Shown here: one piece after another, positions 5,797 through 25,781 of the stretch
Numbering within the stretch: position 1 is the stretch's first letter
Layout: each line of letters starts with the position of its first letter
Source of the DNA: Pseudomonadota bacterium
GTDB taxonomy: Bacteria > Pseudomonadota > Gammaproteobacteria > Burkholderiales > Thiobacillaceae
Reading direction: 5' to 3'
Assembly (NCBI GenBank): GCA_030684775.1
Contig: JAUXXW010000059.1
Coordinates: forward strand, 1-32,558
DNA length: 32,558 nucleotides
Made by a program: the position numbers and the translations under genes
The notes under the pieces: model-generated
What the model was told of the DNA's origin: nothing
The model's database searches: none
Seen by the model: the letters and a program-made list of their open reading frames with translations, nothing else

Positions 5797-8700
5797 ATGC
5801 AAGGCCAACTCTTTTCCTCCGACTTCCTGCTGCGCGGCATTCAGGAGACGGAAGCCTGGCGCGCGGTGAACGAGGCCGATCTGGACGGCTTCATCGCGCG
5901 GCTGCGCGCGCATTACGCCCCCTTCGCGGCCGATTCCACCCTCAACGAAGCGCAGACCGAAGATGAACTGATCGAGCCGGTGATCGATCTCCTCGGCTGG
6001 GATGACGCCTGGATTTCTCAGGTCAACCTGTCGACGACCGGGCGCGAGGATGTGCCGGATTTCCTGCTGTTCGCGGAACCCGCCGCCAAGGATCGCGCCT
6101 TGTCCGAGAAGGCGGACGATGCCCGCGCCCGTCATGGCGTAGCCCTGCTGGAAGCCAAACGCTGGCTGCGCCAACTCGACCGGGGCGAGGAGGGTTCCAT
6201 AGGCAACCGCAAGCGCCGAGACTTCGGCGCGCCTTCCTCGCAGATGTTGCGTTACCTCTCGCGCGCCGACGTCATGAGCGACCGCGCGGTGAAGTGGGGC
6301 ATCCTCACCAACGGCGCGATCTGGCGGCTGTACTGGCAGGATGCCCGCTCGCGCGCCGAGGAGTTTTTCGAAATCGACCTGGCCGGCCTGCTTGGCGTAC
6401 CCGGCGTGCAGCCGGAAATCGACCACTACGAGACCCGCCACGGCCTCAAGCTGTTCTGGCTGATCTTCGGGCGCAACGCCTTCAACCCCCAGGCCTGGGA
6501 CAGCCAGCGCCGCACCTTCCACGGCATCGCCCTGGCCGAGGCGCGCCTGTATGAAGAAACCGTATCCAGCCAGTTGGGCGGCCGCGTCTTCACCGAGGTA
6601 TTTCCCAACCTGTGCGCCGCCCTCGCCACGGCGGATCTGGAAGCGCGCAAGCATCCCAAAGGCGGCTACACCGACGATTACCTGGAGGAACTGCGCGAAG
6701 CCGCCCTGGTGTTGCTCTACCGCCTGCTGTTCGTGCTCTACGCGGAAGACCGCCGCCTGCTGCCGGTCATGGATGCCCGTTACGCGCCCTACAGCCTGAC
6801 CGACCTGCGCGACGTGATCGCCGTCGCGCGGGATACCGGCAAGGTGTTGTCCAACCGGGTCACCAACTACTGGGCGGTGCTGGACAACCTGTTCACCCTG
6901 ATCGCCGAAGGCGACGACACCCTGGGCATGCCCGCCTACAACGGCGGCCTGTTCGAGCGCGCCCGCTCCTTCCTGCTGGCCCGCGCCAAGTTGCCGGATG
7001 CCAAACTGGCGCTGGTGATCGATGCGCTGTCGCGCCGGGTCGAGGACATCCTCAAGCCGCGCATCAACTACCGCGACTTGTCTGTGGCGCATCTGGGCGG
7101 CATCTATGAACGCCTGCTGGAATACCGGCTGGAAGAAATCCGTGTCGAAGAAGATCGCTTCGAAGGCATCAAGGCCAGCAGCACGCTGACCGTGAGCAAG
7201 TCCGGTTTCGCGCGCAAGGGCTCCGGCAGTTATTACACCCATGACGCCCTGGTCCGCCTGATCCTGGACGAGACGGTGGGCAGGCTCACCGCCGAACATC
7301 AGCAGGCTTTCGACGTCCTGTTCAAGAAATACCGCAAGAAAGCCCAGCTCAAGCCCTACGAATGGGATGCCCTGGAAGCGGCCGATCCGGCCAGCCGTTT
7401 CCTCTCCCTGCAAATCTGCGATCCGGCGATGGGTAGCGGCCACTTCCTGGTCGCCCTGGTGGACTGGCTGGCCGACCGTGTTCTGGAGGCCGCCCAATCC
7501 AGCGCCATCGCCGTCAACGACTGCGGCTTCGCCGCCCATATGGTCGAACAGGGGCGGCCCTGGGCCTCGCCGGTGGCCGCGCGCATCGCCGACATTCGCC
7601 GCCGCATCCTGACTGCGGCCCAGGAACATGGCTGGACGGTCGACCTGCGCCAGCTCGATGATCGTCACATCGTCCGCCGCATGATCCTGAAACGCGTGGT
7701 GTACGGCGTCGACAAGAACGTCATGGCGGTCGAACTCGCCAAAGTCGGCTTGTGGCTGCACACCTTTACGGTCGGCGCGCCCTTGTCTTTCCTCGACCAC
7801 CATTTGCAATGCGGCGACTCCCTGCACGGCGAACGCCTGGAAACGGTGCGCGCGGGCATCCAGTCGCTCGGCTCTTTGTTCCAGGAAGGCGAAATGGCGC
7901 GGATCGAAATCGCCGCGCGCAGCCTGGAATCCGTGGCCGAACTCACCGACACCAGTGTGGCCGAGGCGCATGAATCGAAACGCCTGGCCGATGAAGCCAA
8001 TCGCCAGATTGCGCCGCTTCACGCCCTGCTCGGTTTCTGGCGCGGCCTGCGCTGGATCGTGCCGGGGTGGCCCGGCACCAAGCTGGACAAGATCACGGAT
8101 GCGACCACCCGCCTGGCCCTGGCCGAGCTGTTCTCCGACCGCCACAATCTGGTCGGCGTCGCGGCCAACGGCCGTATCAGCGGACGCGGTGACAGTATTG
8201 CCGCCGCCAATGAACTCCTGGCGCGGCTGGCCCAGCTTTCCCGGCGGGAACACTTCTTTCATTGGCAAACCGCTTTCCCGACGGTCTGGAAAAACGGCGT
8301 GGGCGGTTTTGACGCGGTGATCGGCAATCCGCCCTGGGACCGCATCAAGCTCCAGCAAGTCGAATGGTTCGCCGAACGCAAACCCGAAATCGCCCTGCAG
8401 GCCCGCGCTGCCGACCGCAAGGCGCTGATCGAGCTGGAACGGAAACGCAACACCCCGCTCTGGCGCGAATACCTTCTCGCCGGCGACGCGGCGGAAGCCG
8501 GCGCCAGGGTGGTGCGTGAATGCGGCGACTACCCGCTCCTGTCCAGCGGCGACATCAATCTCTACAGCCTGTTCGTGGAACGCGCGCAAGCACTGGCGCG
8601 GCCGGGCGGCATCGTCGGCCTGCTCACCCCCTCCGGCATCGCGGCGGACAAAGGCGCCTCCGCGTTCTTTCGCACCTTGACCGCGCCGGATGTAGCGCCG

Positions 8701-10032
8701 GCTTCCAGCCGGCTCTTTGAAGACGCCGGCAAGGATGCCGGCGCTACAGGCTGCCGTCTGGCCGCGCTCTACGACTTCGAGAACAGGAAGGGTTTTTTCC
8801 CGGATGTCGATTCGCGCTTCAAATTCTGCGCCCTGGTGTTCGGCGGTGAGTGGCGCCGTTTCGCGCAAAGCCAGTGCGCCTTCTATCTGCATGACGTGGC
8901 GGATTTGACCGACCCGGAACGCGCGTTGACGTTGAGTGGCGAAGACTTCGCCCTGGTCAACCCCAACACCGGCGCCGCGCCCATCTTCCGCCGCCGCCGC
9001 GACGCCGAGATCACCATGCGGATCTACCGAAACCATCCGGTGCTGGTGAACCGCGCGCGGGGCACGGAACAACGCGCCTGGCCCGTGCGCTATGTACGCA
9101 TGTTCGACATGACCAACGACTCCGGCCTGTTTTTAACGCGCGCCGAGTTGGAAAAGCAGGGATTTACACCGACGGCCCTGAATCGCTGGGTGAAAGACGG
9201 CAAGGAGGCGGTGCCGCTCTACGAGGGCAAGATGGTGCAACGCTACGATCATCGCGCCGCCGACGTGGTGATCAACGCCGCCAACCTGCACCGCGCCGCG
9301 CAACAGGAAACGATACAGGAGGCGGTGAAGGAGCAGCCGGATCGGTATCCGATGCCGCAGTACTGGGTGCGGCGGGATGCCATCGAAAGCTACGAATTGC
9401 CCTCGGCCGTGCTGGCGTTCAAAGATGTCACCGCGCCAACCAATGTCCGCACCATGATCGCGGCAATGGTGCCGGCTACCGCTTTCGGCAACACCCTGCC
9501 GTTTTTGGTGCTTCCTCCTCTGGATGCGGTACTGCTGTCCGCCAACCTGAACAGCTTTGCCTTCGATTTCCTCGCGCGCCAGAAAGTGCAAGGGCAGCAC
9601 CTCAACTGGTACATCCTCGAACAACTCCCCGTCATCGCCCCCGCCACCTACGAACAAACACTCGGCGGCGTGCAACTCGCCGACTTCATCCGTGGCGAAG
9701 TCCTGGCCCTGTCTTACACCGCCCATGATCTGGCGCCCTTCGCCCGCGACCTGGGTTACGTGGATGAAAACGGCGACGTCAAGCCGCCCTTCAAATGGAA
9801 CCCGGAAAAACGCGCCCAACGCATGGCCCGCCTCGACGCGCTGTTCATGCACCTCTACGGCCTCGACGCGGATGCCGCCGAGTACATCCTCTCCACCTTC
9901 CCCATCGTGCGTGAACAGGACAAGAAGGCTTATGGCAGTTACCGTACCCGCGACCTGATCCTGGGCTATCTGGCGCGGATCGAGGCGGGGGAAGCGGGGG
10001 TTTTTCAGAGCACTGCGCCAGAATCCGCGTGA
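5797..10032 (+). CDS. Type IIG-like restriction-modification fusion protein (nuclease + N6-adenine methyltransferase)
   Basis: A 1411-aa protein likely to cut and modify DNA at one recognition site. The N-terminal part shows a PD-(D/E)xK pattern: VPDF with D88, then LLEAK with E119 and K121. The central part is a gamma-class adenine methyltransferase: GSGSYYTHDALVRLI, the SAM motif CDPAMGSGHFL (residues 541-551) and the catalytic NPPW at 844-847. LYDFENRKGFFPDVDSRF follows, and the C-terminal about 350 residues (AFKDVTAPTN..., QHLNWYILEQLPVI) resemble the target-recognition region of Eco57I-like enzymes. No helicase motif is seen. ATG 5797 lies 21 bp after aroA with a weak ribosome site. A 58-bp palindromic repeat is embedded at 8691-8748. 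The recognition sequence and activity are unknown. Confidence 0.85.
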   Translation: MQGQLFSSDFLLRGIQETEAWRAVNEADLDGFIARLRAHYAPFAADSTLNEAQTEDELIEPVIDLLGWDDAWISQVNLSTTGREDVPDFLLFAEPAAKDRALSEKADDARARHGVALLEAKRWLRQLDRGEEGSIGNRKRRDFGAPSSQMLRYLSRADVMSDRAVKWGILTNGAIWRLYWQDARSRAEEFFEIDLAGLLGVPGVQPEIDHYETRHGLKLFWLIFGRNAFNPQAWDSQRRTFHGIALAEARLYEETVSSQLGGRVFTEVFPNLCAALATADLEARKHPKGGYTDDYLEELREAALVLLYRLLFVLYAEDRRLLPVMDARYAPYSLTDLRDVIAVARDTGKVLSNRVTNYWAVLDNLFTLIAEGDDTLGMPAYNGGLFERARSFLLARAKLPDAKLALVIDALSRRVEDILKPRINYRDLSVAHLGGIYERLLEYRLEEIRVEEDRFEGIKASSTLTVSKSGFARKGSGSYYTHDALVRLILDETVGRLTAEHQQAFDVLFKKYRKKAQLKPYEWDALEAADPASRFLSLQICDPAMGSGHFLVALVDWLADRVLEAAQSSAIAVNDCGFAAHMVEQGRPWASPVAARIADIRRRILTAAQEHGWTVDLRQLDDRHIVRRMILKRVVYGVDKNVMAVELAKVGLWLHTFTVGAPLSFLDHHLQCGDSLHGERLETVRAGIQSLGSLFQEGEMARIEIAARSLESVAELTDTSVAEAHESKRLADEANRQIAPLHALLGFWRGLRWIVPGWPGTKLDKITDATTRLALAELFSDRHNLVGVAANGRISGRGDSIAAANELLARLAQLSRREHFFHWQTAFPTVWKNGVGGFDAVIGNPPWDRIKLQQVEWFAERKPEIALQARAADRKALIELERKRNTPLWREYLLAGDAAEAGARVVRECGDYPLLSSGDINLYSLFVERAQALARPGGIVGLLTPSGIAADKGASAFFRTLTAPDVAPASSRLFEDAGKDAGATGCRLAALYDFENRKGFFPDVDSRFKFCALVFGGEWRRFAQSQCAFYLHDVADLTDPERALTLSGEDFALVNPNTGAAPIFRRRRDAEITMRIYRNHPVLVNRARGTEQRAWPVRYVRMFDMTNDSGLFLTRAELEKQGFTPTALNRWVKDGKEAVPLYEGKMVQRYDHRAADVVINAANLHRAAQQETIQEAVKEQPDRYPMPQYWVRRDAIESYELPSAVLAFKDVTAPTNVRTMIAAMVPATAFGNTLPFLVLPPLDAVLLSANLNSFAFDFLARQKVQGQHLNWYILEQLPVIAPATYEQTLGGVQLADFIRGEVLALSYTAHDLAPFARDLGYVDENGDVKPPFKWNPEKRAQRMARLDALFMHLYGLDADAAEYILSTFPIVREQDKKAYGSYRTRDLILGYLARIEAGEAGVFQSTAPESA
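8691..8748. repeat. GTAGCGCCGGC palindromic repeat inside the restriction gene
   Basis: Perfect 12-bp terminal inverted repeats, TGTAGCGCCGGC (8691-8702) and GCCGGCGCTACA (8737-8748), enclose two further GCCGGC motifs. It encodes about 20 residues (VAPASSRLFEDAGKDAGATG) between FRTLTAP and CRLAALYDFENRKG, where a linker is not expected from the family. The element is unrelated in sequence to the repeats in aroA and the DUF748 gene. The core length (58) is not a multiple of three, so extra bases must have been gained or lost for the frame to survive. Confidence 0.72.
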
Positions 10033-10895
10033 CCCGGGAAACACTGCGCATCTATGTCGACGAGGCGGGAGATTCCACCTTGTTCGCCAACCGCCGCCGC
10101 GCCATCGTCGGCACGGAAGGCTGCTCGCGTTACTTCATCCTCGGCAAGCTGGAGGTGGACGACCCGGCCGGCCTGGGGCAGCGCCTTGAGACCTTGCGCC
10201 GGCAACTTGTCGACAGCCCCTACTTCGGCGGTGTGCCCTCGTTCGACCCCGCGCGCGGCAAGACTGCGGTCGCTTTTCATGCCAAGGACGATTTGGCCGA
10301 AGTGCGCTATGAGGTTTTCAAGTTGCTGGCGGCGGAAGGGGGCGCCTTGCGTTTCCATGCGGTGGTCTGCGACAAGGCTCGCATCCTTGAGGATGTCTTG
10401 CGGCGCAATGAGCTGGAGCCGGGCTATCGCTATCAACATAACGAGTTGTACGACGGCTTGATGCGCTCCCTGTTCGGCAATTTTCACCGTCTGGCGGATG
10501 CTTATGACGTCTGCGTGGCGCGCCGGGGGCAAAGCGATCGCAATGAGGCACTGCGTACCGCCATCGACCATGCCGAACGTGATTTCATGGCGAAATATGG
10601 TTTTGCGCGTGGCGCCAGGGATGACTGGCGGATTCACGTTTCCACCCCGAAAAGCGAGGCCTGCCTGCAAGCGGTGGATTATTTCCTGTGGGCGGTACAG
10701 CGCTTCTATGAACCTCGGCTGGACAACGCGTCCGGCGTTTCAAAACAGGATGAGCGCTTTCTGAAAGTGGTCTGGGCGCAGGTGGGTGAAATCCACGACC
10801 TGCACTTTGGCCCCGCGCGCGGCACCTTTTTCAACGCGCAACATCCGTTGTCGCTGGAGTACCGTTTCGGGGAGCAGAAAAGGAAAAAGCCGTGA
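10029..10895 (+). CDS. DUF3800 domain protein, restriction-cassette partner
   Basis: A 288-aa protein beginning with a GTG that overlaps the methyltransferase stop (GTGA), so the two are almost certainly co-translated. YVDEAGD at residues 9-15 and the late SEACLQAVDYFLWAVQRF block (about residue 210) match the DUF3800 family, whose acidic residues are thought to form an RNase H-like site. This family recurs next to restriction and other defence or mobile genes. A role as an accessory nuclease of the preceding enzyme is inferred from coupling only. No signal peptide or membrane segment is visible. It is the last gene of the cassette that interrupts aroA-cmk. Confidence 0.78.
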   Translation: MTRETLRIYVDEAGDSTLFANRRRAIVGTEGCSRYFILGKLEVDDPAGLGQRLETLRRQLVDSPYFGGVPSFDPARGKTAVAFHAKDDLAEVRYEVFKLLAAEGGALRFHAVVCDKARILEDVLRRNELEPGYRYQHNELYDGLMRSLFGNFHRLADAYDVCVARRGQSDRNEALRTAIDHAERDFMAKYGFARGARDDWRIHVSTPKSEACLQAVDYFLWAVQRFYEPRLDNASGVSKQDERFLKVVWAQVGEIHDLHFGPARGTFFNAQHPLSLEYRFGEQKRKKP

Positions 10896-17210: not shown

Positions 17211-17223
17211 GGCGCGAGGGGAC

Positions 17224-17295
17224 GTAGGTTGGGCAAAGCGCAGCGTGCCCAACATTGACCGGGTTGTTGGGCACGCTGCGCTTTGCCCAACCTAC
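17224..17295. repeat. Perfect 30-bp inverted repeat, copy 1 (ugd-cysM gap)
   Basis: Arms at 17224-17253 and 17266-17295 are exact reverse complements (starting GTAGGTTGGGCAAAGCGC), with a 12-bp centre. The arms are identical to those of the copy at 25692-25766, but the centres differ. The RNA would form a very stable hairpin without a T-tract. The second arm ends 27 bp before the cysM start. Confidence 0.95.
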
Positions 17296-17322
17296 ATTTC
17301 TACCTGCTACCGACTACCCGCC

Positions 17323-18485: not shown

Positions 18486-18743
18486 TCAGCGGCACTCGTG
18501 ACTCGCGATCTTGCGCAGCATGGGTGCCAACGCCTCGGCCAACGCGCCGCGCTTCAGGGCCAGCGAATTGTCGACGTGGGCCTGGGCCAACTTCGGGTTG
18601 CCATCGGCCCAGGCCCGGATGGCGAGTCGGACCAGGTTTTCGGCGCGCGACTCGACAGACAACACCAGACCGAGATCACAGCCGCAGCGTGGGCAGAGCG
18701 CGCTTTCATTCAGGCGGCCGCGGCAAGATGGACAGCGTTCCAC
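18486..18743 (-). CDS. Small zinc-ribbon protein, last gene of chaperone operon
   Basis: An 85-aa protein starting with GTG 2 bp after the Hsp70 stop, so translationally coupled. Two CxxC pairs (C4/C7 in ERCPSC, C17/C20 in LCPRCGC) predict a zinc ribbon. The rest is helical (LVRLAIRAWADGNPKLAQAHVDNSLAL), resembling a single TPR-like helical pair. I do not recognise a named family. Its place in the operon suggests a small adaptor for the Hsp70 machine, possibly a client- or nucleic-acid-binding module; this is inference only. Confidence 0.72.
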   Translation of the reverse strand: MERCPSCRGRLNESALCPRCGCDLGLVLSVESRAENLVRLAIRAWADGNPKLAQAHVDNSLALKRGALAEALAPMLRKIASHECR

Positions 18744-18745
18744 GC

Positions 18746-20512
18746 TCAGGTTTCCAGGTAGTAGAGCAGGTCGGCGAGGCTGTCCATGGCCAATTTCAGG
18801 GCTTCATCCCCTTGCGCGAGGGCATCCTTGACGGCTTCGATGCCGTTCACCAGGTCTTCGCCGTCTTCCGCGCCGGCCGTCCCCAGCAGTCGTTCCGCTT
18901 TTTCCACCAGGGCCAGGGCCTCCACCCGCAGGCGACGGTGTTCGGCGCTGTCGCCAGCCTTGCCGCCTGGCGTTGAGGGTGTCTCGCCGAACAGGGTGCG
19001 TACGCGTTCGCGGGCGGCGTCGATCTGGTCGGTTTCCTGGCGCGCCAGGGCGTTGGCGATGGTGATGGAGCGTTCCAGGCCGGTTTCCTTTTCGCGCGTG
19101 GTGACGTGGAGGATGCCATCGAGGTCGAGCGAGAAGCTGGTGACGATGCGGCTGCCGGCGGGGGCGTCGGCGCGCAGGCCGTCGATGGTGAACTGGCCGA
19201 TTTCGACGTTGTTGAGCGCGTCGCGATCTTCGCCTTGATAAACGCCGACATCGATTCGTGCCTGGCCATCGTAGGCGGTGTAAAACACCTCGCTCTTGGA
19301 GACGGGGATAGGGGTGTTCTTGCGGATCAGGGGGATGAAACAGTAGTTGTATTCTTCGCCGTCCAACATGCCGATGGCGGAGGTGCCGAAGGTGTAGGGG
19401 GTGACATCGACCAGCACCCTGGAGGTCTGGTCGCCATTGATGACGCCGGCCTGGATGGCCGCGCCCATGGCCACGCACAGATCGGGATTCAACTCGCCGC
19501 GCGGCGCCAGGCCCAGCGACTCCTCCAGGCGGCGCGCCACCAGTGGCGTGCGGGTGGCGCCGCCGACCAGGAGGATTTCGTCGATGTCGGACACGGTCAG
19601 ATGCGCGCCGGCGAGGGCGATATGGGTGGCGTCCAGTGTTTCGGCGATGTAGGGCTCGATCATCGCTTCGTAGTCGTCGCGCGAGAGTTCCACCGCCAGG
19701 TGGACCGGCTCGCCCTGATGCTGGAGCAGGTATTCCTCGGCGAGCATGGCGTAGGGGCGGTCGGACAGCGTGATCTTGGCGGCCTCGGCGGCGCGTTGCA
19801 GGCGCGCCAGGGCGATGCCGGACTGGCGCGCGGCATCGGCCACCTCGGCGCCGTGGCGCGCCTGGAGATGGTCGAGGGCGAAATCGACGATACGCTGGTC
19901 GAAGTCATCACCGCCCAGATGGTTGTTGCCGTGGCTGGCGAGCACTTCCACCACGTCGCCTTCCAGGTTGACCACGGACACGTCGAAGGTGCCGCCGCCG
20001 AGGTCGTACACCAGCGCCCGGCGCGCGCCCTGGTGTCCGGTTTCGTAGGCCAGCGCGGCGGCGGTGGGTTCGTTGATGATGCGCACCACCTCCAGCCCGG
20101 CGATTTCACCGGCTTCGCGGGTCGCCTGGCGCTGCGCGTCGGAGAAATAGGCGGGCACGGTAATGACCGCCTTGTTCACCGGCTGTCCCAGGTGGTTCTC
20201 GGCGATCTGCTTGAGCCGGCGCAGGATCAGGGCGGAGATTTCCTGCGGGCTGTAGTCCTTGTCGCCCAGGCTGACGCGGGTGGCTTCGCCCATGCGCCGC
20301 TTGATCGAGCGCACCGTGCGTTCCGGGCGCAGCACATATTGGTTGCGGGCGGCTTCGCCGATCAGCAGGGCGCCGTCGTCGGCCAGGCCGACCATCGAGG
20401 GCAGGATGCGCACCCCTTCGGAGATGGCGATGACTTCCACGCGTCCGTCGCGCACCACGGCGACTTCGGAGTTGGTGGTACCCAGATCGATACCGACAAT
20501 AATTTCACTCAT
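18746..20512 (-). CDS. Hsp70-family chaperone (DnaK/HscC-like)
   Basis: ATP-driven chaperone of 588 aa, shorter than DnaK (about 640). The nucleotide-binding domain is complete: GIDLGTTNSEVAVV (residues 7-20), INEPTAAALAYE (146-157), VYDLGGGTFDVSVV (168-181), LGGDDFDQ and ILLVGGATRTPLV (313-325). The linker RVLVDVTPYTFG and a substrate-binding beta domain follow (about 370-490, with IPLIRKNTPIP and DLDGILHVTTREKETG). The C-terminal lid is short. ATG 20512 lies 5 bp after the grpE-like stop with AAGGA upstream. It is probably not the housekeeping DnaK, because the gene set around it is a dedicated module with divergent co-chaperones. Confidence 0.92.
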   Translation of the reverse strand: MSEIIVGIDLGTTNSEVAVVRDGRVEVIAISEGVRILPSMVGLADDGALLIGEAARNQYVLRPERTVRSIKRRMGEATRVSLGDKDYSPQEISALILRRLKQIAENHLGQPVNKAVITVPAYFSDAQRQATREAGEIAGLEVVRIINEPTAAALAYETGHQGARRALVYDLGGGTFDVSVVNLEGDVVEVLASHGNNHLGGDDFDQRIVDFALDHLQARHGAEVADAARQSGIALARLQRAAEAAKITLSDRPYAMLAEEYLLQHQGEPVHLAVELSRDDYEAMIEPYIAETLDATHIALAGAHLTVSDIDEILLVGGATRTPLVARRLEESLGLAPRGELNPDLCVAMGAAIQAGVINGDQTSRVLVDVTPYTFGTSAIGMLDGEEYNYCFIPLIRKNTPIPVSKSEVFYTAYDGQARIDVGVYQGEDRDALNNVEIGQFTIDGLRADAPAGSRIVTSFSLDLDGILHVTTREKETGLERSITIANALARQETDQIDAARERVRTLFGETPSTPGGKAGDSAEHRRLRVEALALVEKAERLLGTAGAEDGEDLVNGIEAVKDALAQGDEALKLAMDSLADLLYYLET

Positions 20513-20517
20513 GTTTG

Positions 20518-21183
20518 CTAGTCCTTCTTGTTGACGATGACTTCGGCGGCGCGCAGCAGCTCGCCGTGCTGGTAATAACCGCGCAGTACCTCGCGCAGCA
20601 CCTGGCCGTCGGGCTGGCCGGGCACCGCTGCGACGCCCACCGCGCGCATCCGATGCGGATCGAGTCGCTGGCCGATGGCTTGCAGCGGACGCACCTGGTG
20701 TCCGTCCAGCAATTCATCCACACGCCGCAGCGTGAGGCTCTGGCCTTGCGCCAGGCTGTCGGCGAAGCGGGACTCGGCCGGGGCCAACCGCGCCAAGAAG
20801 CCGGGACGGTGCGCGGCGCCGGCATCCACGCCCGCCGCCAAGCGATCGCGCAGGTCGAGCAGGCCCAGCAGCAGGCCGCGTTCGGCTTGGCGCTTGCCCG
20901 CGGCGGCTTGTTCGCGCGCCCGTTCCAGCTCCCGATTCAGGCGTTCGTTCTGTTCGCGCAGGACTTCGCCAAACTGGCGCATTTCTTCGAGCATGGCCTT
21001 GAACTGACGCGACTCCAGGCGGATTTCGTTCTTCAGCGCGGCCATTTCGGCCAGCAGGCTGTGCAGATCGACCGGGGTGTCGCCGGTCTCCGTGTCGCTT
21101 TCCTCGACATCGTTTTCCACGCACTCGTCGAGGTAGGCGCGGAATTCCTCGATCAGGCTTTCCTTTTGGGCGGGGTCGAGCAT
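20518..21183 (-). CDS. GrpE-like nucleotide exchange factor
   Basis: A 221-aa GrpE-family protein, predicted exchange factor for the Hsp70 encoded next. Residues about 38-98 form a long charged coiled coil (LLAEMAALKNEIRLESRQFK, EVLREQNERLNRELERAR). The C-terminal beta domain has QRLDPHRMRAVG and VLREVLRGYYQHGELLRAAEVIVN, close to the GrpE signature. Two starts are possible: GTG 21186 (GTGA overlap with the J-protein stop) and ATG 21183 (1-bp overlap); I prefer the ATG. The N-terminus carries an acidic stretch (VEESDTETGD). Confidence 0.85.
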   Translation of the reverse strand: MLDPAQKESLIEEFRAYLDECVENDVEESDTETGDTPVDLHSLLAEMAALKNEIRLESRQFKAMLEEMRQFGEVLREQNERLNRELERAREQAAAGKRQAERGLLLGLLDLRDRLAAGVDAGAAHRPGFLARLAPAESRFADSLAQGQSLTLRRVDELLDGHQVRPLQAIGQRLDPHRMRAVGVAAVPGQPDGQVLREVLRGYYQHGELLRAAEVIVNKKD

Positions 21184-21476
21184 CACGGTTTTTCACCCAA
21201 CACCCGGCGCAGCCGTTGCTCCGATGGACGGCGCGGTTGGAAGACGGCGCCGAGCGCGTCCAGCACGTCTTCCGGCGTTGGTGCCGTGGTGTCGAACAGG
21301 GCGTGGGAGAGGCGCGCCTGGGCGTCGGCGATGGCCTCAAAGGCGGCGCGCAACTGCTCGAAGCGGTGCCGGTCACGCTCGGGTGGGCAAGCGCGTATTG
21401 CCGCCAGATAGGCGAGGCGGATGGTTTCGTCGTCGGCGGTGGCGGGTACACCGAGGAGGCGGTAGGGGTCAGTCAT
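21183..21476 (-). CDS. Mini J-domain protein lacking the HPD motif
   Basis: A 97-aa protein consisting of little more than a J-like domain: DPYRLLGVPATADDETIRLAY (helices I-II) and RFEQLRAAFEAIADAQARLSHALFD (helix III and after). At the position of the HPD tripeptide needed to stimulate Hsp70 ATPase it has CPPERD (residues 30-35). The longer open frame starts at 21539 inside the TPR gene; ATG 21476 is chosen because it starts the J-like domain and overlaps the TPR stop by 8 bp. It sits between the TPR gene and grpE in a coupled operon. It may be a J-like scaffold rather than an ATPase activator, or may use a variant motif. Confidence 0.78.
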   Translation of the reverse strand: MTDPYRLLGVPATADDETIRLAYLAAIRACPPERDRHRFEQLRAAFEAIADAQARLSHALFDTTAPTPEDVLDALGAVFQPRRPSEQRLRRVLGEKP

Positions 21477-23940
21477 CGAACAGGTTTCTCTGGTTAATAT
21501 CCGAAGGTTTGCGTGGGGCCGGCGCCTGGATGTCGTCAAGTCGCGCCTGTTGCGCCATCAATTCGACCAGGGCGCGGGCGAACTCCTTGTTGTTTCCACC
21601 CAGTTCCTTGCGCAGGGCATCGAACATCTTCTTGCCCATCGCCTGGCGCGCCATGCTGAACAGCGCCTCCTCGCCACCCATGCGCAACAGCATCTCGAAC
21701 ATCGCGCCCGGATCGTCATCCGCCAGCCCGCCGACGAAGTCGTAGTCATCCTCCGGGTAGAACCTGTCTGGCTCGATTGGATGGAGCAGATCCTGGATGC
21801 GCTGGAAGGTGCGCCGATCGCCTTGAGCGAGGGCTGCCTCGGCGGCATCTTCGAGGTTGTATCGCATACGCTCAGGCATGTTGTAGGGCATGTCGGCGTA
21901 TTGAGCCATGGCCTTGAAATAGACGAAGAGGGGTTGTCGCGGCCAATGTTTCAGCGCGGCATCGGCATAGAGACGCAGCAGTTCCTTTTCCTTGCGGCGC
22001 AGCCAGGCTTCGCAAATCAGGCGCTGCTCGGCCTCGGCATAGCGGCCGCTCGCCGCTCGCCTGAGCGCCGGGCGCAGGGGATGCAAAGCGGTGCGCAAGG
22101 CATTGCCGCGCAAAGTCGTGTCCATCTCGCGCGCGGCTTCGAGCGCTCGGGCCAGGGCGGCCACCGCAGCGGGGGCGGGCGTGGCGGTCAGATCGACCTT
22201 CCCTCGCGCCAGCAGGACGGCCGCATCGAGTCCCAGCCGGCCCGCTTCCAGGGCCAGATGAAAGCCGCCCAGCAAGGCACCCCCCAGGTCGGCGACCGCG
22301 TCACGGATCGCGCCGTCGGCGCTCGCCGGGTCGTCACTGGCGAGGGCGCGCAGCAGATTCAGCGTCGCGCCATCTTCCGAACCGCGCAGCCATTCCGCCG
22401 CCGCCTCCAGTTCCTTGCGCGCCGACGGGTGGTTTTTCGCCTTGATCTGCTTGCGCGCGTGGGAGAAATGGGCCTGGCCGATCAGCCGTCGCACCTTGGG
22501 GTTGATCGGGTCGAGTTCCAGCACCCGCTTGGCCAGCCCCACGGCTTTCTTGAAGGCTTTTCCGGCGAGCGCCACCCGCACCGCTTCGAGCAAAAGCTCG
22601 GCATCCTTGGGGAAACGCGGCAACGCCTGGTCGAGGCGGGCGCGCGCCTGCTGGAGCGCACCCACGTGGCGAAGCTCGGCGATCAGCCGTAACTGGGTGT
22701 CGCGTTGATCGGGATCGAGATCGACACTGCGCTCCATGCAAACGATGTCGTCCGGATACAGCGCGCCGGCCTCCTCCAGGGGCGCCAGATCCATCACTGA
22801 CAGGCGCCGCCAGATCAGCGCCGCCTGCCGCTTCTTTTCAGGATCGCCGCCCAGCAATTCGGCCATGCGCTGCCAGTGAGGCATGGCCAGGCCGCGATCG
22901 CCATGCGCCTCCGCAGTCAGGGCGGCGAGGTGTGATAGTTCCACCTCCGGCAAGGTGCCAAGTACGTCGGCATGGAACTTCAGCCGATTCGACGCATGGG
23001 GCAGTAATCGCCGGCAGACATTCGCCGCCAGCCCATCGGGCAGCGCGCGCCGATGACGCGCGAGCAGATCGAAAAACTGCCCGGGGTTGGGCTGGTCGCC
23101 TAATTTGGCGAGCTCCAGCAGCAGGGGACGCAGGGGGTCTGGGCAACCTTTGAGATCCAGCACCAGTTGCCGGCCGTTCTCGTCGAGATCGCGCAATGCC
23201 GTCAGCCAACGGCCGGCGGGCAAGGCCGCGCAGCGCAATGCCGCGGCCAGCCGCTCGAATGGGCCGTCAACCGGCAGCCGGGCAATCACCTCGGTTGCCT
23301 CCGTTGCCTCAGCCGCCGCGGAATCCGTTGTCAGCAGCGCCAGCGCCTTGAGCAGCGGTTTCAAATCGCGATACGGCGAACGAAACGGAATCGCCTGAAG
23401 GCATACACCCAGCGCGGCCAAATCACCTTGGCCGTATGCCTGCAACGCAGCCAGCGCGGCCGGCCGATGGCGCAGCAATGCGCTGTCGGCGGGCAGGTCG
23501 GGGAGTTGCGTGTCTGACGGCAAGGTCAGCAGCGTGGCGGCGAGGCGAGTTTCCAGTTCGGCGCGCGCCGCTTCGGGCAGGGAGGGATCGGCCAGCAGCC
23601 GCACCGCCTCGCCCCGCTCTCCCGCCTGCATCAGCCAGGTCAGGTAAGGCCCTTCGACGAGCGGCTTGCCGCATAGCTGCTGGCGGTTACGCCACAACAC
23701 CAGCGCTTCCTTGAGCATGCCCTTGGCGGCCAGACTGTGGGCGCGACCGGCGTAACACGCGGCCAAGCCATCGACCCAGACGGGCCGTCGCTCACGCTTG
23801 AGCAGTTCCTTGTAGAGCTCGATCGCCTCCTTGTGCCGAGACAGGGCCAATTCCGCCTCGGCCCGCTCGGCCAACGCGGCGCTGTCCATGTCATGGGGTG
23901 ACGGCGGTTTTTTCGGGTTGGCTTTGGCCTTGCGTGACAT
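21469..23940 (-). CDS. Large TPR-repeat protein, first gene of chaperone operon
   Basis: An 823-aa, mostly helical cytoplasmic protein with no signal peptide or membrane segment. The N-terminus is basic (SRKAKANPKKPPSP). TPR-like pairs are visible at residues about 20-90 (AEAELALSRHKEAIELYKEL, AAKGMLKEALVLWRNRQQLC) and about 420-520 (ALQQARARLDQALPRFPKDA, AFKKAVGLAKRVLELDPINP). The C-terminal 150 residues are distinct and conserved-looking (FVYFKAMAQYADMPYNMPER, DDYDFVGGLADDDPGAMFEM) and end in NQRNLFDD. I do not recognise a named family. Leading a J/GrpE/Hsp70 operon, it may be the client adaptor or the client itself. Start: ATG 23940. Confidence 0.82.
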   Translation of the reverse strand: MSRKAKANPKKPPSPHDMDSAALAERAEAELALSRHKEAIELYKELLKRERRPVWVDGLAACYAGRAHSLAAKGMLKEALVLWRNRQQLCGKPLVEGPYLTWLMQAGERGEAVRLLADPSLPEAARAELETRLAATLLTLPSDTQLPDLPADSALLRHRPAALAALQAYGQGDLAALGVCLQAIPFRSPYRDLKPLLKALALLTTDSAAAEATEATEVIARLPVDGPFERLAAALRCAALPAGRWLTALRDLDENGRQLVLDLKGCPDPLRPLLLELAKLGDQPNPGQFFDLLARHRRALPDGLAANVCRRLLPHASNRLKFHADVLGTLPEVELSHLAALTAEAHGDRGLAMPHWQRMAELLGGDPEKKRQAALIWRRLSVMDLAPLEEAGALYPDDIVCMERSVDLDPDQRDTQLRLIAELRHVGALQQARARLDQALPRFPKDAELLLEAVRVALAGKAFKKAVGLAKRVLELDPINPKVRRLIGQAHFSHARKQIKAKNHPSARKELEAAAEWLRGSEDGATLNLLRALASDDPASADGAIRDAVADLGGALLGGFHLALEAGRLGLDAAVLLARGKVDLTATPAPAAVAALARALEAAREMDTTLRGNALRTALHPLRPALRRAASGRYAEAEQRLICEAWLRRKEKELLRLYADAALKHWPRQPLFVYFKAMAQYADMPYNMPERMRYNLEDAAEAALAQGDRRTFQRIQDLLHPIEPDRFYPEDDYDFVGGLADDDPGAMFEMLLRMGGEEALFSMARQAMGKKMFDALRKELGGNNKEFARALVELMAQQARLDDIQAPAPRKPSDINQRNLFDD

Positions 23941-25672: not shown

Positions 25673-25691
25673 ACCGCCTACGGTTAGCAGC

Positions 25692-25766
25692 GTAGGTTGG
25701 GCAAAGCGCAGCGTGCCCAACTTGCGACGGTGGATTGTTGGGCACGCTGCGCTTTGCCCAACCTAC
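25692..25766. repeat. Perfect 30-bp inverted repeat, copy 2
   Basis: Arms at 25692-25721 and 25737-25766 are exact reverse complements and identical to those at 17224-17295; the centre is 15 bp and unrelated. The second arm ends 1 bp before the AAAGGAG ribosome site (25768-25774) of the next gene, so the RNA hairpin would abut it. Confidence 0.95.
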
Positions 25767-25781
25767 GAAAGGAGATGAAGC

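Follow-up and report, generated by a model that had tools for sequence, protein, structure and literature searches.

The stretch analysed here, which we call the window, is the whole of contig JAUXXW010000059.1 (32,558 nucleotides), one of the 227 contigs of a 3.85-Mb, 96.4% complete assembly from the Thiobacillaceae (GCA_030684775.1). It carries five closely packed genes on the minus strand (Table 1) that encode a large tetratricopeptide repeat (TPR) protein, a short J-like protein, a GrpE-like nucleotide exchange factor, an Hsp70 and a mini protein with a zinc ribbon. The original prediction, made from the sequence alone, had described them as a complete but divergent Hsp70 cycle with two unrecognised partners, dedicated to one client or pathway. 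The gene structure was borne out: the coordinates were confirmed and Pfam recognised DnaJ, GrpE, HSP70 and TPR_19. The TPR and J genes overlap by 8 bp, the J and GrpE genes by 4 bp (GTG start) or 1 bp (ATG start), and gaps of 5 bp and 2 bp separate GrpE from Hsp70 and Hsp70 from the zinc-ribbon gene. As regards gene content the cycle is complete, but its J protein has no His-Pro-Asp (HPD) motif. A long hydrophobic stretch was found in none of the window's five proteins.

Table 1. Genes and sequence features of the five-gene unit (positions in the window; ORF, open reading frame; aa, amino acids)
Feature	Position	Strand	Description
TPR scaffold gene (putative)	21469-23940	minus	823 aa; ORF, TPR_19 Pfam 3.5e-06
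J-like gene	21183-21476	minus	97 aa, J domain and C-terminal tail; DnaJ Pfam 8.1e-07
GrpE-like nucleotide exchange factor gene	20518-21186	minus	222 aa from GTG, or ATG at 21183; Pfam 8.6e-19
Operon-type Hsp70 gene	18746-20512	minus	588 aa; HSP70 Pfam 4.5e-143
Zinc-ribbon and TPR-like mini protein gene	18486-18743	minus	85 aa; AlphaFold2, CxxC...CxxC
C-terminal peptide QRNLF of TPR protein (residues 817-821, then DD)	21478-21492	minus	relaxed beta-clamp-like motif
PPE at the HPD place, J protein residues 31-33	21378-21386	minus	alignment to DnaJ, DjlB, DjlC
GrpE-signature loop of Hsp70 (about DnaK 289-298)	19691-19720	minus	residue alignment
Hsp70 C-terminal end SLADLLYYLET, where DnaK has an acidic tail	18749-18781	minus	similar end in 63/67 complete operon Hsp70s
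Four zinc-ribbon cysteines (residues 4, 7, 17, 20)	18684-18734	minus	invariant columns, n=60 sequences

The five-gene order, TPR and zinc-ribbon genes included, recurs across Pseudomonadota, as the original prediction required. A scan of GTDB genomes returned 226 GrpE relatives, and in the best 80 of these 226 loci (six of them on the same contigs as loci fetched earlier) the order TPR-J-GrpE-Hsp70-zinc ribbon is present in 64, 62 of which were called automatically and two by inspection (L053, and L114 with a 4.5-kb insertion). Since the order is kept in so many of these loci, the arrangement goes beyond chance. Thirteen of the remaining 16 end at a contig border and three are true exceptions: L077 and L089 have no Hsp70 nearby, and L106 is GrpE alone. 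Named carriers include Massilia glaciei, Polaromonas glacialis, Variovorax paradoxus, Halomonas, Thiocapsa, Thiocystis and Ca. Thiomargarita. The labels of two further bins (L081 and L110; Phycisphaerales and Polarisedimenticolaceae) suggested non-proteobacterial members, and we treated them as doubtful because the L110 operon Hsp70 groups beside Sedimenticola and the DnaKs of both bins group with proteobacterial ones.

The unit also occurs on cyanobacterial plasmids. The same five genes in the same order lie on a Nostoc plasmid, where they are annotated by product only. The copy on Acaryochloris plasmid pMB02 (L171) looks damaged: its GrpE stretch runs across two annotated genes, and its Hsp70 matches in three pieces that are unannotated in the incomplete gene table of the plasmid. 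Two further Acaryochloris plasmids hold relatives of the TPR protein, GrpE and Hsp70. These four plasmid copies were detected only via the Hsp70 and the Nostoc proteins. As for a mobile origin of the window's unit, no phage record (of 50,697) or plasmid record (of 72,556) matched its GrpE at E up to 1e-5, nor did the GrpE profile turn up a true relative in IMG/VR.

Closer to the host, the TPR protein is present in 5/23 genomes of the genus, the host included, and in 0/38 other genomes from the family and order; one more match within the genus (E 2.8e-4, 28% identity) was left uncounted. A single-sequence GrpE search (E up to 1e-10) of 300 genomes of the order returned the host genome alone, and the GrpE profile (E up to 1e-14) matched 10/369 genomes of the class, again counting the host. 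Of the nine other class loci, six hold all five genes in order, two end at a contig border (L036, L041), and L038 has J and GrpE genes with no Hsp70 in the next 3 kb. The TPR profile (E up to 1e-20) matched 27/398 genomes of the phylum, including the host. Among 62 loci, median pairwise identity is highest for Hsp70 (0.61), followed by GrpE and J (0.41 each), the zinc protein (0.33) and the TPR protein (0.30). Gene distances in these loci correlate, most strongly between Hsp70 and TPR (0.86) and least between J and the zinc protein (0.43), values that are uncorrected for species phylogeny and that fit co-inheritance of the unit. As a separate observation, Halomonas and its relatives carry two distinct operon lineages (L102 and L108; L070 and L090), which hints at horizontal transfer.

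By its sequence, the operon Hsp70 belongs to a well-supported clade of its own and is not DnaK, HscA or HscC, the three bacterial types counted in the available sections of a review (PMC8215388) that cites Barriot et al. 2020 as an extensive analysis of bacterial J proteins and Hsp70s. The window protein stays below the NCBIfam cut-offs for DnaK (533.7 vs 648 and 521.5 vs 822.55 bits) and HscA (405.9 vs 708.55 bits), and no isc gene is among the window genes scanned. An operon-Hsp70 profile scores operon copies at 933-1093 bits, four DnaKs of other phyla at 526-551, proteobacterial DnaKs at 468-502, E. coli HscC at 364, four more HscCs at 348-411 and HscAs at 317-365. The predicted divergence also appeared in trees built from subsets (35/69 operon rows in the first; 18/69 plus the Nostoc copy in the second). 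Operon Hsp70s form one clade (SH-aLRT 99 in the first tree; 99/99 for the 19 rows with the Nostoc copy) that lies outside DnaK in both and, in the second, also outside HscA and HscC. The HscC clade (5 rows, 100/100) is separate from it, and the two are sisters at 100/100; the tree program warns that long branches meet at this point, and two alternative placements without this sisterhood are only weakly rejected (AU test, p 0.047 and 0.031). On these trees the operon clade is probably sister to HscC.

Residue comparisons covered 69 sequences, the window protein and 68 others, of the 75 operon Hsp70s identified. Catalytic, J-contact and linker residues (D8, T12, K70, E171, T199, P143, R151, R167, N170 and D393 in DnaK numbering) are kept in 69/69. 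The GrpE-signature stretch (289-298) has 10-11 residues in all 69, compared with three in E. coli HscA and four in HscC. The lobe-I segment (DnaK 76-101) is missing in 69/69 and in HscC and is present in HscA, and the 404-414 stretch (L1,2 by place) has 19 residues in 69/69, 16 in HscC and 11 in DnaK. The GrpE signature, the lobe-I deletion and the insertion in the substrate-binding domain (SBD) are features named in the same review, whose available sections report the lobe deletion in many non-proteobacterial DnaKs as well (PMC8215388). D211 is missing in all 69 operon Hsp70s, in HscC and in HscA. The operon proteins end, unlike DnaK tails, in a conserved L.YYL-type sequence near the terminus (63/67 complete sequences).

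The GrpE-like protein scores 68.2 bits against profile PF01025 (cut-off 25.8, residues 48-220) and has a profile match to a solved GrpE (3.1e-15). The J protein scores 29.5 bits against J-domain profile PF00226 (cut-off 27.8) and is 38% identical to E. coli DjlC over 47 aa. DjlB and DjlC carry a long C-terminal hydrophobic stretch, and the J protein of the window has none. At the HPD place, 77 J proteins read PPE (53), PPD (14), SPE (7), PAE (2) or APD (1), and neither HPD nor HPE occurs; the first position is His in 0/77, and the acidic third residue is kept in 77/77. In the Nostoc copy and one from Acaryochloris the place is taken by PAH, which has no acidic residue. According to the available part of a review, replacements in HPD abolish stimulation, and only the HPE of DjlB and DjlC seems tolerated (PMC13254874), which makes the HPD-less J protein of the operon an unusual case.

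AlphaFold2 models the TPR protein as an all-helical solenoid (mean predicted local distance difference test score, pLDDT, 90.0) with a disordered tail at residues 805-823 (pLDDT <50). The 85-aa protein, for which Pfam gives sub-threshold zinc-ribbon matches only, is predicted to fold into a zinc ribbon and three TPR-like helices (mean pLDDT 92.2). Its CxxC...CxxC pattern is present in 66/66 homologues, and in Foldseek it overlays weakly on the TPR domains of HOP, Sgt2 and Hip, with none at E <= 0.001. A basic, DNA-binding signature of the TPR tails was considered and dropped as too weak (mean K+R 0.158 vs 0.135 in the body).

Genomes that keep the TPR protein and lack the dedicated Hsp70 are informative about the division of labour. 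We compared 18 of the 26 other genomes with a TPR-profile match, a set of our own choosing and not a random one: the 12 without GrpE beside TPR, two that carry another TPR locus and four taken from the remainder. An operon-type Hsp70 (711-829 bits) is present in six of the 18 and absent from 12, whose best match (296-389 bits) is at DnaK level. In eight of these 12 (genus g479), the gene after TPR encodes the J tail only (65-73 aa, no J domain), and in the other four (genus g504) the J domain stays and its motif is lost (SK[AT] vs [PS]P[ED]). The motif [PS]P[ED] is intact in the full-operon J domain of 6/6 genomes that have the operon-type Hsp70. Two genomes carry a second TPR gene besides the full operon: in G730 (contig C26) it is paired with a J gene that has its J domain, with no Hsp70 in the 11 kb read, and in G767 (its contig C59) it is followed by a J tail only; one engine may serve two scaffolds in both. 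Across these genomes the fate of the J domain follows that of the Hsp70, and the J tail stays with the TPR protein. Since genomes without the dedicated Hsp70 still have the TPR protein and the J tail, the choice between adaptor and client that the original prediction had left for the TPR protein leans to adaptor or scaffold.

The disordered C-terminal tail of the TPR protein offers a candidate target. In the available part of a review, the motif that binds the DNA polymerase sliding clamp is given as Q-phi-x-[LM]-[FL] or Q-phi-x-[LM]-x-[FL], with most weight on the Gln and the last hydrophobic residue, tolerance at position 2 and possible help from adjacent acidic residues (PMC11139829). We examined two sets of TPR proteins: 75 from the genome scan (the 76 proteins of the 80 loci minus L080 and L086, which are <700 aa, plus the window) and 28 from the phylum search (29 loci minus L205, at a contig end). 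The sets overlap in at least two genomes (identical tails L113/L177 and L116/L178), and their union holds about 101 proteins and about 56 motifs. The flanking controls were 1190 mechanical ORFs of >150 aa, many of which are not genes, and a 355-frame subset conserved between loci. The pentapeptide Q-x-[SDNG]-[LM]-F lies within the last 14 residues of 34/76 TPR proteins, compared with 2/1190 flanking and 1/355 conserved frames, and in 33/74 compared with a mean of 0.035 after shuffling. In the second set, which was fetched later, this pentapeptide occurs in 0/28, and the tails mostly end in the hexapeptides QLEMDL, QLAMDL, QLELDL or QLTLDF, such that both published forms are represented among TPR tails. 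The strict published motif is found in 10/75 and 17/28 TPR proteins (vs 3/1190 flanking frames, 1/355 conserved frames and 2/297 other operon proteins). The relaxed motif is found in 36/75 and 21/28 (vs 4/1190, 2/355 and 0/297), the 36 including a doubtful match in L077 that falls in a helix-like stretch and is probably due to chance. Shuffles for these counts averaged 0.26 and 0.18. The clamp-like tail is also kept in 11/12 of the Hsp70-less genomes. These tail motifs suggest the sliding clamp as the probable location of the TPR scaffold in many lineages.

Taken together, the sequences establish the five-gene unit, its order, the distinct Hsp70 clade with its invariant residues and GrpE loop, and the HPD-less J domain, and we lean towards the view that this co-inherited unit encodes a dedicated Hsp70 machine of the cytosol. 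Its TPR/J scaffold, probably tethered to the clamp in many lineages, would recruit a GrpE-driven Hsp70 of its own. Recruitment of a private Hsp70 by such a scaffold is suggested by protein anatomy and covariation, and the clamp step by a short motif. The TPR solenoid would serve as the scaffold and bind the C-terminal tail of the J protein. To recruit the dedicated Hsp70, the J domain would use its conserved acidic residue and the Hsp70 its Arg167; the operon GrpE would reset the Hsp70. The zinc-ribbon/TPR mini protein may dock on the conserved C-terminal end of the Hsp70. Finally, the TPR tail would tether the assembly to the sliding clamp in many lineages; given such a tether, the clients would probably be clamp-bound replication or repair proteins. 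In lineages without a clamp-like tail, either the target may differ or another part of the TPR protein may find it. The fuller picture is of an unnamed system that is found widely in Pseudomonadota and also on plasmids of cyanobacteria. In it, a clamp-held TPR/J scaffold with a PPE J domain would call an HscC-sister Hsp70 and GrpE to remodel proteins at replication forks or repair sites, and in some lineages the scaffold would have outlived the Hsp70, with the J protein reduced to its tail. We hold this picture tentatively, as falling a little short of probable.

There are several observations that count against this proposal. The pentapeptide pattern was devised after the tails had been seen, and the tail of the window itself, QRNLF-DD, has Arg at position 2 and fits the relaxed form only. 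The motif is missing in 39/75 and 7/28 TPR proteins, including those of Thiocapsa, Competibacteraceae and Thiomargarita, and in both cyanobacterial tails that were looked at (Nostoc, by eye, and one of the three Acaryochloris copies). Mapped on the Hsp70 tree, the pentapeptide trait requires 11 changes, eight of which are forced by supported branches. Among the flanking clusters of the 80 loci there is no widely shared neighbour that points to replication. The loss of HPD could mean that the J domain stimulates no ATPase at all. The comparison with Hsp70-less genomes depends on our selection of 18; those 12 genomes belong to only two genera, and their state may reflect two events; six of their assemblies are only 65-84% complete, the other six being 90-100% complete; and G767, with a J tail beside its second TPR gene in the presence of the full operon, is an exception to a strict rule.

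The alternative that survives best keeps the dedicated TPR/J Hsp70 machine and has the tail dock on a partner other than the clamp, such as the J tail, a protease or a different scaffold. The absence of the motif from more than half of the first set is in its favour, as are the recurrent neighbours, which are not replication genes, and position 2, which is mostly non-aliphatic in the betaproteobacterial pentapeptide tails, the window included. We nevertheless regard it as unlikely: tails elsewhere (QLEMDL, QLELDL, QLTLDF) fit the second motif form in the available part of the clamp review, and retention of the motif in nearly all Hsp70-less genomes indicates that the tail is not merely a dock for that Hsp70.

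A second possibility is that the TPR protein is the client, or a structural product that the Hsp70 set folds or assembles. The TPR gene comes first and overlaps the J gene, and TPR and Hsp70 distances correlate strongly, with the phylogenetic reservation already given. On the other hand, the TPR protein persists with a J tail or a decayed J domain in genomes without this Hsp70 and is predicted to be an ordinary well-folded solenoid, and a private GrpE for a single client would presumably be unusual; we consider the client role improbable. We give no better prospects to a third explanation, in which a pseudo-J protein blocks the Hsp70, as discussed for Pam16, and the operon is an off-switch or a holding complex. 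It would account for a first motif position that is never His (77/77) and agrees with the statement, in the available part of the review, that HPD replacements other than HPE abolish stimulation (PMC13254874). However, the acidic third residue and its partner Arg167 are kept throughout (77/77 and 69/69), and in the absence of the dedicated Hsp70 the J domain beside TPR is gone or decayed, which fits active use of the J domain.

A dedicated machine was predicted to exist beside a separate DnaK and away from the housekeeping chaperone genes. In the host assembly, the Hsp70 family consists of HscA beside HscB on contig C59, the window gene and a short match on C120 within a 363-aa frame that is probably MreB; a housekeeping dnaK was not found in its 227 contigs, at 96.4% completeness. 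Because the housekeeping grpE frame ends about 106 bases from the end of contig C122 and DnaJ is on C119, the dnaK of the host most likely lies in an assembly gap. In G016 and G010, of the same genus, DnaK follows grpE and is 41% identical to the operon Hsp70, and 12/12 operon-bearing genomes examined have, besides the operon gene, an extra HSP70 match of at least 862.9 bits (DnaK level). The dedication that was predicted is upheld by this separate DnaK, the recurring order and the Hsp70's own clade; the claim of a single client was not. The operon of the window adjoins cysM and is, as described, away from housekeeping chaperone genes, but this is not a general rule, since the sister genomes G016 and G010 have grpE-dnaK at distances of about 1.3 kb and about 5 kb from the operon (L017 4713-14486 and L018 4378-17845). 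The operon site thus varies within the genus. A spare stress chaperone set with no special client, for which the presence of all parts of a DnaK-J-GrpE cycle and this proximity in two sister genomes might speak, is very improbable given the specific TPR protein of about 800 aa, the zinc-ribbon/TPR protein, the HPD-less J protein, the separate Hsp70 clade and the sporadic distribution (5/23 genomes of the genus).

Of the known systems, HscC with DjlB and DjlC (E. coli ybeQ-hscC region) is alike in its sister Hsp70 clade, its lobe-I deletion, its SBD insertion, a J domain of the same type with an acidic third motif residue, and the helical-repeat (Sel1) proteins encoded nearby in E. coli, which may be compared with the operon TPR protein. 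In contrast to HscC, the operon Hsp70 keeps the GrpE loop, has its own GrpE and is not nested in the HscC clade; the operon J protein is mostly PPE instead of HPE, has 97 aa and lacks a membrane anchor; and the unit includes the 823-aa TPR and zinc-ribbon/TPR proteins. With DnaK-DnaJ-GrpE the unit shares the three-part cycle and the catalytic and interdomain residues. It differs in an Hsp70 about 41% identical to the same-genus DnaK, with a shorter C-terminal part, no acidic tail and a ...YYLE-type end, in a J protein without HPD and in the extra TPR and zinc-ribbon partners. HscA-HscB likewise pairs a dedicated Hsp70 with a private J protein in one operon, but in HscA most of the GrpE loop is missing and the protein falls in a different clade, and the host has HscA-HscB separately. 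AtcJ-AtcABC of Shewanella oneidensis resembles the unit in having a short operon J protein whose C-terminal extension binds a partner; in the available part of the source, the AtcJ J domain is functional and works with the DnaK system, and no private Hsp70 or GrpE is named (PMC6715715).

Beta-clamp binders (Pol III alpha, Pol II, Pol IV, Hda and transposases), as far as our source describes them, use a similar short penta- or hexapeptide at a terminus or in a disordered region; the window TPR tail resembles it in sequence but deviates at position 2. Neither "chaperone" nor "DnaK" appears as a word in the main text, as available, of the clamp review (PMC11139829). In line with the earlier remark that no named system has this gene set, no description of the gene set or of a clamp-bound Hsp70 system was found in open-licence literature, among the matches listed. 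This further Hsp70 clade, which comes with a GrpE of its own, is relevant to the reasons for the loss of GrpE in HscA and HscC, and an HPD-less J domain that is kept beside a functional-looking Hsp70 and gone or decayed in its absence puts the question of HPD-less J domains within direct reach of experiment. Should the clamp tail prove genuine, this would be the first known Hsp70 machine posted to the sliding clamp; from open-licence literature, among the matches listed, we know of no other.

Regulatory and neighbouring sequences give few further clues. An upstream alignment of seven loci, in some of which the start codon is uncertain, contained no common box that would indicate a heat-shock promoter, beyond local similarity among the closest relatives. 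In PADLOC anti-phage models, four of the five proteins have no match, and GrpE residues 20-100 weakly match PbeC (E 0.0073). Clustering of 2301 flanking frames from the 80 loci, with annotation covering some clusters only, gave no partner in more than 10 loci, and the unit therefore looks self-contained; no client emerged from these flanking clusters. The sole tight neighbour is an M16-type peptidase (Pfam), present in only seven loci, of which four bear the label Competibacteraceae or Contendobacter. Another frame, from the endonuclease/exonuclease/phosphatase family, resembles exonuclease III by eye; it recurs in seven loci at about 4-7 kb (L081, L094, L101, L112, L114, L120 and also L082), and the window has no copy. 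We rejected it as a partner because six of the seven loci, which look related, have a common block in which the frame lies about 4-6 kb upstream of the operon and which includes the same sugar-nucleotide gene (identified by eye), and we read it as probable shared ancestry of the site.

Two other features of the window are recorded here. At 5797-10895, between aroA and cytidylate kinase in what is otherwise a housekeeping cluster, lie genes for a 1411-aa Eco57I-type (type IIG-like) restriction-methylation protein and a DUF3800 protein. A short repeated element that reads in frame VGWAKRSVPN or GTLRFAQPT flanks the operon region at a distance (about 17220-17304 and 25690-25767). It occurs in both orientations and, including L018 55-137 and L020 3112-3179, also on other contigs of the host and in sister genomes.

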